Source of the DNA: Chloroflexota bacterium
GTDB taxonomy: Bacteria > Chloroflexota > Dehalococcoidia > SM23-28-2 > RBG-16-64-32
DNA: 7,572 nucleotides
Direction of reading: 5' to 3'
NCBI GenBank assembly: GCA_016190405.1
Contig: JACPQO010000100.1
Coordinates: 1 to 7,572, forward strand
In this document: positions 3,875 to 7,572 of the stretch, in pieces
Layout: each line of letters opens with the position of its first letter
Position numbering within the stretch: the first letter of the stretch is position 1
Program-made: the position numbers and the translations under genes
Notes under the pieces: model-generated
What the model was told of the DNA's origin: nothing
Databases searched by the model: none
What the model saw: only the letters and a program-made list of their open reading frames with translations

Positions 3875-4525
3875 TTGGAGTGGGCCGTCGCCGGCATCGG
3901 CGTCTTCTTCCTCTTCCTGGCCTACATCGTGGTCCAGGGGACCCGCGCCGCTACGGCCTGGCGCAAAGCCGCTGCCGCCGGCGATGTCGATGTCATCCGC
4001 CGCATCATCGAGGAAGGCATCGCCGCCTGGCGGTCCATGAAACGCCCCCAAGAGGTGGCATCGGAGGTCTGGCGCGGCGTTCAGAGCATGGAGGTCGTGG
4101 CGGTGGCTGCGGGCTCGGCGCGCGTCTCCTGTCAGGCCGAGAGCGAATACCGGCTGCTGAACGGGCGCTGGGTCGAGATGGCCAACCCATTGCAGCAGGG
4201 CATGGCCATCACGGCCCGCGCCGCCGATATGCTCCTGTACGAGCTGCCCCACCTGCGCCTGGAGCGCGTACAGATCGACATCTACACCACGTTCCGCGAG
4301 GCGGACGGGCCGGCCGGCCGCCGCTGCATCCTCTCCACACAGGCCACGCGCGAGGCCGCCCGACAGCTGGACTGGGAGAACTGGACCGCGACCGAGATCG
4401 TCGAGGCCCTGGGCGGCCGCTACCGGATCAGCGGCTCCGGCCAGCCGCTGCCCATCGATCCCCGGCGGCCGTCTTTGACCCGGCGAGCGCCCCGGAACGG
4501 CCGCAAGGCCCGCGTCACCCCATGA
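3875..4525 (+). CDS. unrecognised single-pass membrane protein in the aro cluster
   Basis: I do not recognise a family. From TTG 3875 the product is 216 aa. Residues 4-21 form one hydrophobic helix ([18 protein letters not shown]), followed by a soluble part. An Ala-rich, charged amphipathic stretch (24-70) comes first, then a region that alternates hydrophobic and polar residues and could be beta-rich (about 73-140, including the only two cysteines but one). A helical segment with WENW follows (about 157-180), and the tail is short, basic and Pro/Arg-rich (191-216). There is no cleavable signal and no catalytic motif I can name. The gene starts 2 nt after aroE, preceded by AAAGGAGAG, and its TGA overlaps the aroC ATG (ATGA at 4522-4525), so it is translated as part of the same operon. 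This context suggests, but does not show, a link to aromatic biosynthesis; hitch-hiking is equally possible. Codon use resembles its neighbours. Confidence 0.8.
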
Positions 4526-5697
4526 CCGAGCTGCGCTTCCTCACCGCCGGCGAGTCGCACGGCAAGGCGCTCACCGTCATCATCGAAGGCGTTCCGGCCG
4601 GCCTGCCGCTCACCGAGGAGTTCATCGCCTGCGACCTGCGCCGCCGCCAGGGCGGCTACGGCCGCTCCAAGCGTCAGCAGATCGAGGAGGACCGGGCCGA
4701 GGTCCTGAGCGGCGTCCGCCACGGCCTCACGTTGGGCAGCCCCAACGCCCTCCTCATCGCCAACCGCGTCTGGGACGACTGGCGCGAGGTGATGCAGGTG
4801 GAACCGTATGAGGGGGAGACGAAGAAGGTGACCCGCCTGCGCCCCGGCCACGCCGACCTGGCCGGCGCCATGAAGTACGGCTTCGACGACGCCCGCAACG
4901 TCCTCGAACGCGCCTCCGCCCGCGAGACGGCCGCCCGCGTGGCCGCCGGCGCCGTCTGCCGCCGCTTCCTGGAGGATTTCGATATCGCCGTCCACTCCCA
5001 CACCGTCTCCATCGGCGATGTCGTCGCTGACGTCGAAGGCGAGCCCGATTGGGCCACCGTCGAAGAGTCGCCCGTCCGCTGCGCCGATCCTCAAGCCTCG
5101 GACCGCATGGTGCGGGCCATCGACGCCGCCCGCGAGGCCGGCGACACCCTGGGCGGCACCTTCGAGATGTGGGCCACCGACGTCCCCATCGGCCTCGGCT
5201 CCCACGTCATGTGGGACCGCAAGCTGGACGGCCTCCTGGCCCAGGCGGTCATGAGCATCCACGCCGTCAAGGGCGTGGAGATCGGCGGCGGCTTCGCCGT
5301 CGCCGTCGGCCCCGGCTCCCAGGCCCACGACGTCATCCTGCCGCCGGGCCAGTGGGCCGGCCGCCCCTGGGGTCGCGCCACCAACCGCGCCGGCGGCCTG
5401 GAGGGCGGCATGACCAACGGCGAGCCGGTCCTCGTGCGCGGGGCGCTCAAGCCCATCTCCACCCTCTCCAAGCCGCTGCCCTCCGTGGACTTGCACACCG
5501 GCGAGGAGATCCGCGCCCACTACGAGCGCTCCGACGTCTGCACGGTCCCCGCCGCCGGCGTCATCGGCGAGGCGATGGTGGCCATCGTCCTGGCCCGCGC
5601 GATGCTGGAGAAGTTCGGCGGCGACTCGTTGGCGGAGACGAAGCGCAATTTCGAGGGGTATCAGAAGACGGTAGGGCCCCGATTGGAGGTAGATTAG
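4522..5697 (+). CDS. aroC: chorismate synthase
   Basis: Converts 5-enolpyruvylshikimate-3-phosphate to chorismate, the last common step to aromatic amino acids, folates and quinones; it needs reduced FMN. The 391-aa length is typical of the longer bacterial/Gram-positive-like form. Signatures: [15 protein letters not shown] with His13, the [10 protein letters not shown] phosphate-binding region (40-49), [13 protein letters not shown] with His110, the RASARET signature (130-136) with AARVAAGA, the FMN-binding [13 protein letters not shown] (288-300), and [19 protein letters not shown] (336-353). Both conserved histidines are present. The ATG at 4522 fits the family start exactly. The frame is open far upstream (to 3880), but that part is only the other frame of the preceding gene. 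The ATGA overlap implies translational coupling. Confidence 0.98.
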
Positions 5698-5837
5698 CCT
5701 TGGTTCGTGAGAAGAGAGCTCGCACGCGCAAGCCGGGCTCGATATGGACTAGTCCGAGACTGCGGCACATTCGCCATCAGCCCGCGAGTACGTGCGCCAG
5801 CTGAAGCCAATCTGGAGAGGGCTTCTTAAGAGGCGGA
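5698..5837 (+). other. gene-poor spacer after aroC, possible decayed coding end
   Basis: Between aroC and the RAYT gene (309 nt) there is no intact gene of normal size. In this first part I see no promoter, no hairpin with a T-tract and no tRNA. From 5753 a short open frame runs to the TGA at 5843-5845 and ends in a protein-like stretch (REYVRQLKPIWRGLLKRRNG); its stop would overlap the ATG at 5838. It begins right after an in-frame TAG (5750) and has no visible start, so it could be the remnant 3' end of a lost gene or chance. An AAGAGGCGG Shine-Dalgarno-like stretch (5828-5836) precedes the ATG at 5838. Confidence 0.4.
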
Positions 5838-5893
5838 ATGGCTGAGTTCTTGCGCATCATCCTCACTGGCTTCTCCGGCACCGGCAAGAGCCT
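5838..5893 (+). pseudogene. truncated 5' fragment of a shikimate-kinase-like gene
   Basis: From ATG 5838 the first residues read MAEFLRIILTGFSGTGKS, a P-loop NTPase N-terminus almost the same as that of the downstream aroKB (LRVILTGFSGTGKT). Bases 5853-5888 match 6587-6622 at 34 of 36 positions. After about 20 residues the kinase similarity stops and the frame runs into two REP repeats, giving a chimeric 59-codon frame that ends at TAG 6015-6017. The nucleotide-binding loop is there, but the shikimate-binding DxD, Arg and GGG motifs and the LID are missing, so this cannot be a working kinase. It is either the old 5' end of aroK, cut off when the REP/RAYT module arrived, or a duplicated fragment. 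High codon bias alone could keep a conserved P-loop similar in DNA, so recency cannot be judged. Confidence 0.65.
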
Positions 5894-5916
5894 CATCGCG
5901 CCCGGCCTCCCCAGAA

Positions 5917-5998
5917 GACCGTCACCAGTCAGAAGGCCAGGCTTCAGCCTGGCCGGCGGACCGTCACCAGTCAGAAGGCCGGGCTTCAGCCTGGCCGG
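5917..5998 (+). repeat. two tandem REP-type palindromic repeats, upstream of RAYT
   Basis: A 40-nt unit occurs twice (5917-5956 and 5959-5998), 2 nt apart and identical except at one base (A5939 versus G5981). Each begins GACCGTCACCAGTCA and ends in a hairpin: 5935-5954 (GGCCAGGC, loop TTCA, GCCTGGCC, 8 bp) and 5977-5996 (one A-to-G change). Each hairpin is preceded by GAA, giving it a direction. Inverted relatives lie at the 3' end of the transposase gene. The position next to a RAYT gene and the hairpin-plus-tag design match REP elements. Confidence 0.88.
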
Positions 5999-6001
5999 AG
6001 G
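5997..6001 (+). promoter_or_regulatory. ribosome binding site of the RAYT gene, abutting a REP hairpin
   Basis: GGAGG sits 5 nt before the GTG start at 6007 and begins directly after the second REP hairpin (5977-5996). Folding of that hairpin in the mRNA would place a stable structure at the edge of the ribosome footprint, so it could affect translation; this is inference. Confidence 0.6.
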
Positions 6002-6006
6002 CCGCC

Positions 6007-6558
6007 GTGGGCACTAGGAACCACCCGCTCGTTTCCAACCAACCGTTCTTTGTCACCGTAGTGACCAGGAACCGGCAGCCGATCTTCCACGACCACAACG
6101 CAGCCGATCTGATGCTCACGGAATTGTGGCGCCTGCGCGAGGAGCTTCGCTTCGCACTGCTGGGCTACGTGGTGATGGTGGACCACATCCACTTGATCTT
6201 GGTGCCCGGCGAGGCCGCCAGCCTGAGCCAGATCATGCAACTGGTCAAGGGCAGGTTCGCCCGAGCCTGGAACGAGCGTCGCAGCCGCACGGGAAGCCTC
6301 TGGCAGTCGCGGTACTACGAGTCCGCCGTGCGGACGCAGGAGCAATTGACCAGCTGGATTGAGTACATTGACCGAAATCCGCTGGAGGCTGGCCTTGTAG
6401 CGTCAGCGCCGGAGTATCCCTATTGCTCCGCTGGCGGCAGGCTGGCGACGGACCTAGAAGCGTACCTCGACGGTTCGTGGGGCGGCCAGGCTAAAGCCTG
6501 GCCTTCGGATGAGAAGGGGCTCATGGCCGGCCGGGCTGAAGCCTGGCCTTCGGGGTAA
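6007..6558 (+). CDS. REP-associated tyrosine transposase (RAYT, IS200-like Y1/HUH family)
   Basis: A single-strand DNA transposase of the Y1_Tnp/HUH type expected to nick and join REP hairpins. The 183-aa product has the family start (FFVTVVTRNRQPIF, 14-27), the metal-binding HUH motif within VVMVDHIHLILVP (H60 and H62), SLSQIMQLVKGRFARAWN (72-89), LWQSRYYESAVR (98-109) and WIEYIDRNPLEAGLV (117-131) with the presumed catalytic Tyr120, then YPYCSAGG. Catalytic residues are intact, so it could be active. The start is GTG 6007, 5 nt after GGAGG. Residues from about 159 onward (GGQAKAWPS then GRAEAWPSG) are encoded by the two inverted REP repeats, so the ORF has read into its own repeats; the natural family domain ends near residue 155. 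It overlaps the end of the chimeric fragment ORF by 11 nt and stops 10 nt before aroKB. Confidence 0.93.
   Translation: MGTRNHPLVSNQPFFVTVVTRNRQPIFHDHNAADLMLTELWRLREELRFALLGYVVMVDHIHLILVPGEAASLSQIMQLVKGRFARAWNERRSRTGSLWQSRYYESAVRTQEQLTSWIEYIDRNPLEAGLVASAPEYPYCSAGGRLATDLEAYLDGSWGGQAKAWPSDEKGLMAGRAEAWPSG
6484..6553 (-). repeat. two REP-type repeats, inverted relative to the upstream pair
   Basis: Hairpins at 6484-6503 (GGCCAGGC, loop TAAA, GCCTGGCC) and 6529-6548 (GGCCGGGC, loop TGAA, GCCTGGCC), each followed by TTCGG. Read on the minus strand, each is GAA plus the hairpin, the same direction tag as the upstream pair, so these two are inverted copies. Unlike the upstream pair they lack the GACCGTCACCAGTCA extension. 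They lie wholly inside the 3' end of the RAYT reading frame, and the second ends 8 nt before the aroKB Shine-Dalgarno stretch. Confidence 0.87.
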
Positions 6559-6565
6559 GGGGGAG
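6557..6565 (+). promoter_or_regulatory. ribosome binding site of aroKB
   Basis: AAGGGGGAG overlaps the RAYT stop codon (TAA at 6556-6558) and lies 3-5 nt before the GTG at 6569. It supports that start and suggests translation of aroKB is close-coupled to the end of RAYT translation. Confidence 0.55.
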
Positions 6566-6568
6566 CCT

Positions 6569-7572
6569 GTGTCTCGCCGCCCCCTTCGCGTCATCCTCAC
6601 CGGCTTCTCCGGCACCGGCAAGACCGCCGTCGCTCGCTTTGACGCCGAGAAGCTGGGCTGGCAGGCCGTCGACACCGACGCCCTCATCCAGCAGGCCGCC
6701 GGGCGCCCCATCGCCGACATTTTCGCCCGCGACGGCGAGACCCGCTTCCGCGAGCTTGAAGCCCAGACCCTGCGCGACGCCTGCTCGCGGGAGCGCGCCG
6801 TCATCTCCACCGGCGGCGGCGCCCTCCTGCGCCCGGACAACCGCCGTCTCGTGGCGGACGGCGGCTTCATCGTCTGCCTGGAGGCGCGGCCCGAGACTAT
6901 CCTCCATCGCCTGCGCGAAGCCGCCGAAGAGGAGCCTCTTGACCGGCCGCTGCTGGCGGGGCCCGACCCCCTGGGCCGCATCCGCGAGCTGAAAGCCGCC
7001 CGTCAGCCCCTGTACGCCCTGGCCGACTGCACCGTGCACACCGACGGCCTCTCGCCGGAGGAGGTGGCCGACGAGGTTGCGCGCGCCTGGCGCCGCCGCT
7101 CGGCGGCCGCCCTGGCCGATCCGAGCCGCCTGCCAGCCCTGGCCGGGGCGCCGGTCATCGCGGCCGGTCCCGCGCCTGCGGGTGAAGCCTGCGTCGTGCG
7201 CACGCCGAGCGCGTCCTACCCCGTCTTCGTAGCGTGGGACGCCCTGTTCGACCTGGGCCGCCGCCTGCGCGAGGCCGGACTGACCCGCCAGGCCTACCTC
7301 ATCAGCGACGAGACCGTCTACGCCCGCTACGGCCCTCAGGCCGAGGCCGCCGTCCGCCAGGCCGACATCGCCGTCGACTCCTACAGCGTCCCGCCCGGCG
7401 AGGCCAGCAAGTCCCTGCAGACCGCCAGCGCCATCTTTGACTGGCTGGTCGAGCGCCGCGCCGAGCGTGGCGACACGCTGGTCGCTTTAGGCGGCGGTGT
7501 CGTGGGTGACCTGGGTGGCTTCGTGGCGGCGACGTTCCTGCGTGGCATCAACCTCGTCCAGGTGCCGACCAG
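6569..7572 (+). CDS. aroKB: shikimate kinase / 3-dehydroquinate synthase fusion, 5' part (runs off the window)
   Basis: Two shikimate enzymes in one chain. AroK phosphorylates shikimate with ATP; AroB turns DAHP into 3-dehydroquinate with NAD and a metal. The frame from GTG 6569 is open to the window end (334 residues). Kinase half, about 1-175: P-loop GFSGTGKT (12-19), DTD (35-37), GETRFRELE with Arg61, STGGG (80-84), DRPLL in the LID (Arg126) and RQPLY (Arg145); all expected binding residues are present. A linker of some 30 residues rich in Ala, Pro and Arg follows. AroB half, from about 205: YLISDETV (243-250), VPPGEASKSLQT (274-285) and the NAD-site GGGVVGDLGGFVAATFLRG (308-326), ending at QVPT where TTL normally follows. 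The metal ligands and C-terminal domain lie beyond the window. Such fusions are known in some bacteria (Thermotoga has one). The gene follows RAYT by 10 nt and may depend on read-through transcription from aroC. Confidence 0.95.
   Translation, partial: MSRRPLRVILTGFSGTGKTAVARFDAEKLGWQAVDTDALIQQAAGRPIADIFARDGETRFRELEAQTLRDACSRERAVISTGGGALLRPDNRRLVADGGFIVCLEARPETILHRLREAAEEEPLDRPLLAGPDPLGRIRELKAARQPLYALADCTVHTDGLSPEEVADEVARAWRRRSAAALADPSRLPALAGAPVIAAGPAPAGEACVVRTPSASYPVFVAWDALFDLGRRLREAGLTRQAYLISDETVYARYGPQAEAAVRQADIAVDSYSVPPGEASKSLQTASAIFDWLVERRAERGDTLVALGGGVVGDLGGFVAATFLRGINLVQVPT

Follow-up and report, generated by a model that had tools for sequence, protein, structure and literature searches.

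The DNA stretch analyzed here (the window) comprises 7572 bases on one metagenome contig of a Chloroflexota bacterium. It carries, in this order, the 3' end of alaS, a ruvX-like gene, an mltG-like gene, aroE, a hypothetical gene, aroC, the region in question and aroKB; the names alaS, ruvX and mltG were assigned from translations. The region in question contains a decayed antitoxin-like gene, a displaced 5' end of aroK (the fragment) and a gene for a repetitive extragenic palindrome (REP)-associated tyrosine transposase (RAYT) that is flanked by REPs (Table 1). The aroKB gene begins with a GTG codon at 6569, runs off the contig and encodes a fused shikimate kinase/3-dehydroquinate synthase, as judged by the Pfam families SKI (E 5e-39) and DHQ_synthase (E 1.5e-22). 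Fused proteins of 546-580 amino acids are its closest full-length relatives. An earlier note on this DNA had placed a RAYT module inside the aro operon, ahead of an intact aroKB, and this layout is borne out.

The Displaced aroK Head

The earlier note reported 34 identical bases out of 36 between positions 5853-5888 and 6587-6622, and this match is confirmed. Over the whole recognizable head (5853-5903 versus 6587-6637) 43 of 51 bases agree, and a repeat search lengthens the pair to 47 nucleotides with 87% identity. The note's truncated kinase 5' end is also real, breaking off just before the REPs after 22 codons, but the aroK sequence extends to about 5903, not 5893. A hidden Markov model (HMM) of the AroKB N terminus, built from the listed AroKB proteins with the window's own downstream copy among them, scored the fragment at 39.1 bits (E 8e-10) and the downstream copy at 65.7 bits, which identifies the fragment as the start of aroK. 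The ATG at 5838 opens an open reading frame (ORF) that reads MAEFLRIILTGFSGTGKSLIAP and then GLPRRP..., remains open across the REP array and ends with a stop at 6017, overlapping the GTG start of the RAYT gene at 6007.

The two heads differ after the P-loop, with KSLIAP in the fragment and KTAVAR in the downstream copy of the window; among the 20 database AroKB proteins with the closest scores to the window (P0004-P0023), 13 have KSLVAP there. At the DNA level, the fragment agrees with the aroK heads of the related genomes G001, G002, G003 and G004 at 48 of 51 bases each, as against 43 of 51 for its own downstream copy. As a control, the aroK heads of 22 related loci were compared, two of which (L119 and L124) are themselves displaced heads; 42 of the 231 pairs reached at least 34/36, the median being 28. 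The match reported by the earlier note therefore identifies an aroK head but is no evidence of a recent copy of the downstream gene. Since the fragment is nearer to the heads of other genomes than to its own copy, fragment and downstream head are, judged by their sequences, two alleles and not a fresh duplicate. A recent duplication of the aroK start was rejected on the same grounds, the distance between the two copies in the window being larger than that from the fragment to the heads of G001-G004.

The 140 bases separating aroC and the fragment contain the decayed antitoxin-like gene. It is shorter than its relatives, its two recognizable halves are out of frame and its last stop overlaps the ATG at 5838. 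Its 5' half matches, across one stop and a gap, an ORF at the same junction in G008 that precedes a PIN-domain gene identified by Pfam (E 3.7e-6), and its 3' half matches a small ORF that stands alone at this junction in G026 (E 3.8e-7). Both E values apply to the window alone and become 5e-4 and 6e-5, respectively, over all loci searched; each match is the top one in the window for its query, the runner-up having an E value of 0.02. The label "antitoxin-like" is inferred from the place of the G008 ORF before the PIN gene, and no Pfam family matched.

The RAYT Gene and Its Position in Relatives

The RAYT had been correctly identified by the earlier note: it exceeds the cut-off of the NCBIfam model REP_Tyr_transpos, whereas the IS200 model scores below its own cut-off. 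The protein aligns to the TnpArep structure (PDB 4er8) with an E value of 2.4e-7, the HUH and Y positions being aligned. It retains the HUH motif DHIHL and the tyrosine of EYIDRNP, which we take to be catalytic. Two REP palindromes lie on each side of the gene, those on the left in the opposite orientation to those on the right, and the REPs encode the C terminus of the protein. Inverted REPs also flank the RAYT of G001, and the G013 copy lacks an exact REP core. A search with the exact REP core pattern, which leaves degenerate copies outside the count, found four sites in G001, two of them at this locus, and any site in seven of 12 genomes. The closest database RAYT, P0124 (83%), has a C terminus of repeated GQPEAWPSEWGDGV-like units, apparently REP-coded, so that a REP array seems to be translated there as part of the protein.

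RAYTs of the same group are present at the aroKB junction of three relatives, with one such RAYT in each genome. G001 has the order LD gene-REP-RAYT-REP-aroKB (LD being a family named here after a sequence motif), G013 has aroC-RAYT-GNAT-aroKB and G010 has RAYT-GNAT-aroKB on a contig that begins just ahead of the RAYT. In G001 the module precedes the start codon of aroKB and is not within the gene. Between its aroC and aroKB, G023 has, by eye, a left REP piece joined to an apparent RAYT end and a right REP, with a REP core match. The RAYTs of the window, G001, G010 and G013 form one group with a support of 87/82, below the starred level, in a tree of 24 rows in which L075 is represented by the piece before its stop and from which L078, L083, L084, L086, L090, L096 and L097 were omitted because of short or weak matches.

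Among 393 genomes of the class, an even draw from a larger group, 15 had a RAYT match with an E value of 1e-20 or better. The top three (66, 50 and 48% identity) are G001, G010 and G013, all at this locus, and the others do not exceed 44%. A further link comes from the databases, where RAYT P0152 and AroKB P0058 are both from a contig of 165,896 bases, the sole size common to the 43 RAYT and 117 AroKB proteins listed; this suggests RAYT-aroKB linkage in one more genome. Given the same-group RAYTs at this junction in three relatives and the REP scar in G023, the RAYT seems to have long been established next to aroKB.

A Cargo Slot between aroC and aroKB

The junction of aroC and aroKB was surveyed in 22 related genomes, mostly or all drafts and largely from metagenomes. 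G011, G012, G015 and G017 of the order are absent from the survey for want of an aroKB match, and G003 was added from the class. Cargo or a scar was found in 17 of the 22 (in G023 by the scar), and the junction is empty in five (G002, G019, G020, G021 and G022), with 9-26 nucleotides between the aroC and aroK matches. The cargo comprises an amidohydrolase (G003, G004, G005, G006, G024 and G025), GNAT proteins of one family (G007, G014, G016, G018, G010 and G013) and a different GNAT in G024, antitoxin-like genes (G008, with PIN, and G026), LD genes (G001, G009 and G024) and RAYTs (G001, G010 and G013). These families recur in differing combinations, and many of the matches lie only 5-22 nucleotides from the next one. 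Contig boundaries fall within the slot in five genomes, as contig starts in G001, G004 and G010 and as contig ends in G009 and G024; the aroC of G003 is mostly masked. Varied cargo between the same two core genes of related genomes is one mark of a hotspot poor in mobile genetic elements, and with several families in 17 of 22 junctions the aroC-aroKB slot has this property.

The LD gene (L124 663-1487, L001 1-672 and L119 from 2559) encodes a recurrent slot protein with the motif VFLDPDNGL, of 274 amino acids in L124; the L124 protein had no match in Pfam, NCBIfam or PADLOC. PADLOC also returned nothing at an E value of 0.01 for four cargo proteins of the slot and the hypothetical gene of the window. 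A search for relatives with a single protein confirmed none and one with an alignment as query gave 68 loci; among plasmids, no close relatives were matched. A literature search, with most subscription papers lying outside it, had no title on this locus among those listed.

Broken Anchor-Gene Ends in Other Genomes

Two further genomes carry displaced aroK heads. In G009, aroC is followed by an LD gene and an aroK head of 21 codons, which shares its reading frame with a TolB-like PD40 protein, after which the contig ends; the remaining aroKB begins at residue 60, at the edge of another contig. In G024, aroC and a GNAT gene are followed by an in-frame fusion of an aroK head (30 codons) and an aroC tail (33 codons), and then by an amidohydrolase gene, an LD gene and the contig end. 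The fusion is located at about 3341-3530 of L201 (G024:C84) and also at 1495-1686 of L119. At the join, CCTGG is common to aroC and the expected aroK (by eye, the aroK continuation being that expected from relatives). The G024 aroC tail agrees with its own upstream aroC at 79 of 90 bases and with that of G006 at 81 of 90. With these values and the 43/51 between the two heads of the window, the copies differ like alleles of different lineages.

Three of the 45 listed database RAYTs (P0125, P0132 and P0135) have C termini that pass through REP-coded residues into an aroC tail of 29 residues, from residue 362 and with an identical join. Their bodies are 78-88% and their tails 72-86% identical; an identical join with diverged bodies and tails indicates that this event is old. 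A scan of 155 loci and the window with the head HMM, which much shorter heads would escape, found displaced heads only in G009, G024 and the window. G003 and G156 also gave second strong AroK matches, which are not displaced heads: both genomes have a further aro locus on a different contig, and of those in G156 one is cut by a contig end.

Proposed History of the Junction

Taken together, these data make it fairly probable that alternative alleles of the aroC-aroKB cargo slot were stacked in the window, through a homologous crossover in an anchor gene and an illegitimate join. The junction in these Dehalococcoidia-like bacteria would be a slot in which single cargo genes are gained, swapped and lost within the operon, and the REP-RAYT-REP module would be one long-resident cargo. 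In the lineage of the window, a second allele (aroC-antitoxin-like gene-aroK...) may have been joined ahead of the RAYT module, natural transformation being a likely route. On one side, the exchange would have been an ordinary homologous crossover in an anchor gene; on the other, an illegitimate join would have cut the aroK of the second allele after 22 codons, leaving its head attached to the left of the module. The intact downstream aroKB would never have been interrupted. One homologous crossover plus one illegitimate join would likewise account for the other scars, in which two slot alleles stand in series with a broken anchor end between them.

The aroK head may persist because a repeat of this size is too short for recombination to remove the cargo again, and perhaps also because its ORF still brings ribosomes to the RAYT start. 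The scars seen may be the short ones (21-30 aroK codons and 29-33 aroC codons) because longer repeats would have led to loss of the cargo by recombination. An open frame runs from the broken end into the next gene, or as far as its start, in the window, in G024 and, within its readable part, in G009. This pattern suggests continued translation through the operon, three cases being too few for a test.

Trees of the genes on the two sides of the junction give a hint, and no more, that aroC and aroKB of the window have different histories. In the aroC tree the window falls in a seven-row set with group B (G007, G008, G013, G014, G016 and G018), with a support of 96/95 (19 rows) or 88/94 (15 rows), and joining it to group A (G002 and G009) gave a p value of 0.049 in the approximately unbiased (AU) test. 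In the aroKB trees, a set of group B and G023 excludes the window (97/94), and joining the window to group B gave an AU p value of 0.046. The trees used for the AU tests omit G010, G021, G022, G025, G026, G003 (outside aroE) and rows without a 150-residue match.

Several observations weigh against stacking. The AU test gave borderline values, and its groups were defined with the trees already in view. For aroKB, the best tree does not join the window to group A either (p 0.093), and aroE gives no decision (AU p 0.326 for the window with group A). The last 15 nucleotides of the fragment agree with group A at 13-14 positions and with G008 at 12, a poor fit to a simple group-B donor. A donor allele bearing this fragment was not found, and a protein search with the chimeric ORF gave 30 candidates, none with an E value of 0.1 or better. 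Displaced aroK heads occur in just three of the 23 junctions examined, the window included, and the order downstream in G009 and G024 is inferred, their contigs ending before aroKB. The draft state of the comparison genomes counts on the same side.

The earlier note offered, first, a simple history, in which the module entered the start of aroK and a start was then restored or duplicated downstream. In its fuller form, the RAYT module would have inserted after codon 22, or its REP ends would have been joined there by RAYT activity, and the second start would have been regained by recombination with a sister copy. The break lies just ahead of the REP array and the RAYT retains its motifs. In addition, a broken aroC tail adjoins the opposite side of the module in P0125, P0132 and P0135, so that broken anchor genes have been seen on both of its sides. 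However, the RAYT lies outside aroK in G001, G013 and G010, and G023 has its scar between the genes, which disfavors a simple insertion into aroK; no RAYT or REP was seen at the head joins of G009 and G024, neither genome having a match to the REP core pattern. The two aroK heads of the window are also too different for a recent duplication, and RAYTs are described (PMC3116915) as single copies apparently incapable of self-mobilization. The comparison with an empty site that the note had proposed gave no support to insertion into aroK either: in G002, which lacks the RAYT, aroKB starts four bases after the aroC stop. The aroKB of G002 is 94.5% identical in DNA to that of G001 (1608/1701), and its slot is empty; a replacement of the head between these two genomes was looked for and not seen, the identity being fairly even along aroKB. 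We consider insertion unlikely. Distinctly unlikely is a more active role, in which the RAYT module would remodel the locus with its REP ends as recombination ends, joined to the broken aroC tail in the P0125 group and to the broken aroK head in the window, with the retained anchor pieces kept in frame to preserve translational coupling; the domesticated transposase would then be a slot-specific gene-stacking device.

Under the second history offered by the earlier note, a paralogous kinase gene was deleted and its first codons remain; in its fuller form, the gene would have been a tandem copy, either of aroK or of a different P-loop gene. This comes nearer than insertion, and the fragment does have a start codon, a Shine-Dalgarno-like sequence and its own coupled gene upstream. 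The lost part appears to belong to an aroK allele of the same slot, since the upstream neighbor is a decayed cargo gene of the slot. The fragment is a head of the AroKB type in a comparison that covered AroKB heads only, and no pair of complete tandem kinases was seen in the stretches of the 22 genomes, five of them cut by contig ends; loss of a paralogue is therefore very unlikely. In the event of an assembly error, contigs of two strains would have been combined close to the REP array. In favor of this, the window is one contig, REPs are repeats, and the motif GINLVQV at the end of the AroB part, which could point to a chimeric contig end, occurs in no other listed AroKB protein. The break, however, precedes the first REP core, the end of the chimeric ORF overlaps the RAYT start, and like scars exist in two other assemblies and three database proteins, which makes a chimeric contig rather improbable.

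Comparison with Known Systems

The stacking of slot alleles proposed here resembles homology-facilitated illegitimate recombination, which is known from experiments in competent bacteria and E. coli (PMC3240628). Cargo and a shortened anchor gene would be the outcome of one homologous and one illegitimate end, and the G024 join shows a five-base microhomology. The process was established by experiment there, whereas here it is only deduced from scars.

Hotspots without recognizable mobile genetic elements, with recombination in the flanking core genes, are likewise known (Oliveira et al. 2017, PMC5635113). They share with the slot the variable cargo between two conserved genes and the suspected recombination at the flanking genes, and no integrase was noticed in the slots looked at. 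In contrast to those horizontal gene transfer hotspots, the slot lies within a biosynthetic operon, holds between one and three cargo genes and retains scars in the form of broken flanking-gene ends. With RAYT/REP systems (PMC3116915 and NCBIfam NF047646) the window shares a RAYT with inverted flanking REPs, and one gene of this type was found in each of G001, G010 and G013. The locus differs from what is described there in a RAYT kept at one operon position across several species and in the aroC tail fused to the RAYT in three database proteins; the number of REP copies per genome may also be lower, being small when counted with the exact core pattern.

The junction can be regarded as a real and informative scar in a hotspot of a known kind; what is new is that a RAYT stays at a single place and that displaced ends of anchor genes recur within a biosynthetic operon. 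What appeared to be a transposon hit in an essential gene becomes a record of how accessory genes may enter a conserved operon that stays unbroken, with no integrase noticed. The scars yield testable predictions on joins, lengths and frames, and the RAYT gene is an example of one kept at a single chromosomal position in several species.

Integrative elements exist that replace the 5' end of their target gene. They too leave an intact gene and a displaced old 5' end upstream of the cargo, but no integrase or attachment site was noticed here and the cargo differs from case to case.

Features of the Window and Minor Observations

Table 1. Features of the aroC-aroKB region, with window positions
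Feature	Position	Strand	Evidence
aroC, chorismate synthase, left anchor gene of the slot	4522..5697	+	Pfam Chorismate_synt E 7e-118
Decayed antitoxin-like gene	5700..5836	+	matches to G008 and G026 slot ORFs
Displaced aroK 5' end, 22 codons, MAEFLRIILTGFSGTGKSLIAP	5838..5903	+	AroKB N-terminal HMM; 48/51 nt to G001-G004 aroK
Chimeric ORF, 59 codons, aroK head continuing through the REP array	5838..6017	+	translation
REP copy 1, left of RAYT	5931..5959	+	repeat search, exact core match
REP copy 2, left of RAYT	5973..6001	+	repeat search, exact core match
RAYT gene	6007..6558	+	NF047646 120.4 bits, cut-off 80
REP copy 3, right of RAYT, inverted versus left copies	6480..6508	-	repeat search, exact core match
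REP copy 4, right of RAYT, inverted	6525..6553	-	repeat search, exact core match
aroKB, intact start, right anchor gene, cut by contig end	6569..7572	+	Pfam SKI + DHQ_synthase

The GINLVQV motif lies in the end of the AroB part (window 7470-7572, ...VVGDLGGFVAATFLRGINLVQV). This stretch as a whole is 79% identical to P0004, and a chimeric contig end or gene conversion is possible. The spacers 3' of mltG (2908-2995) and alaS (1243-1340) contain, by eye, runs like aaaccagcaaaccaacaaac together with the complement, which resemble imperfect inverted repeats of a further family.

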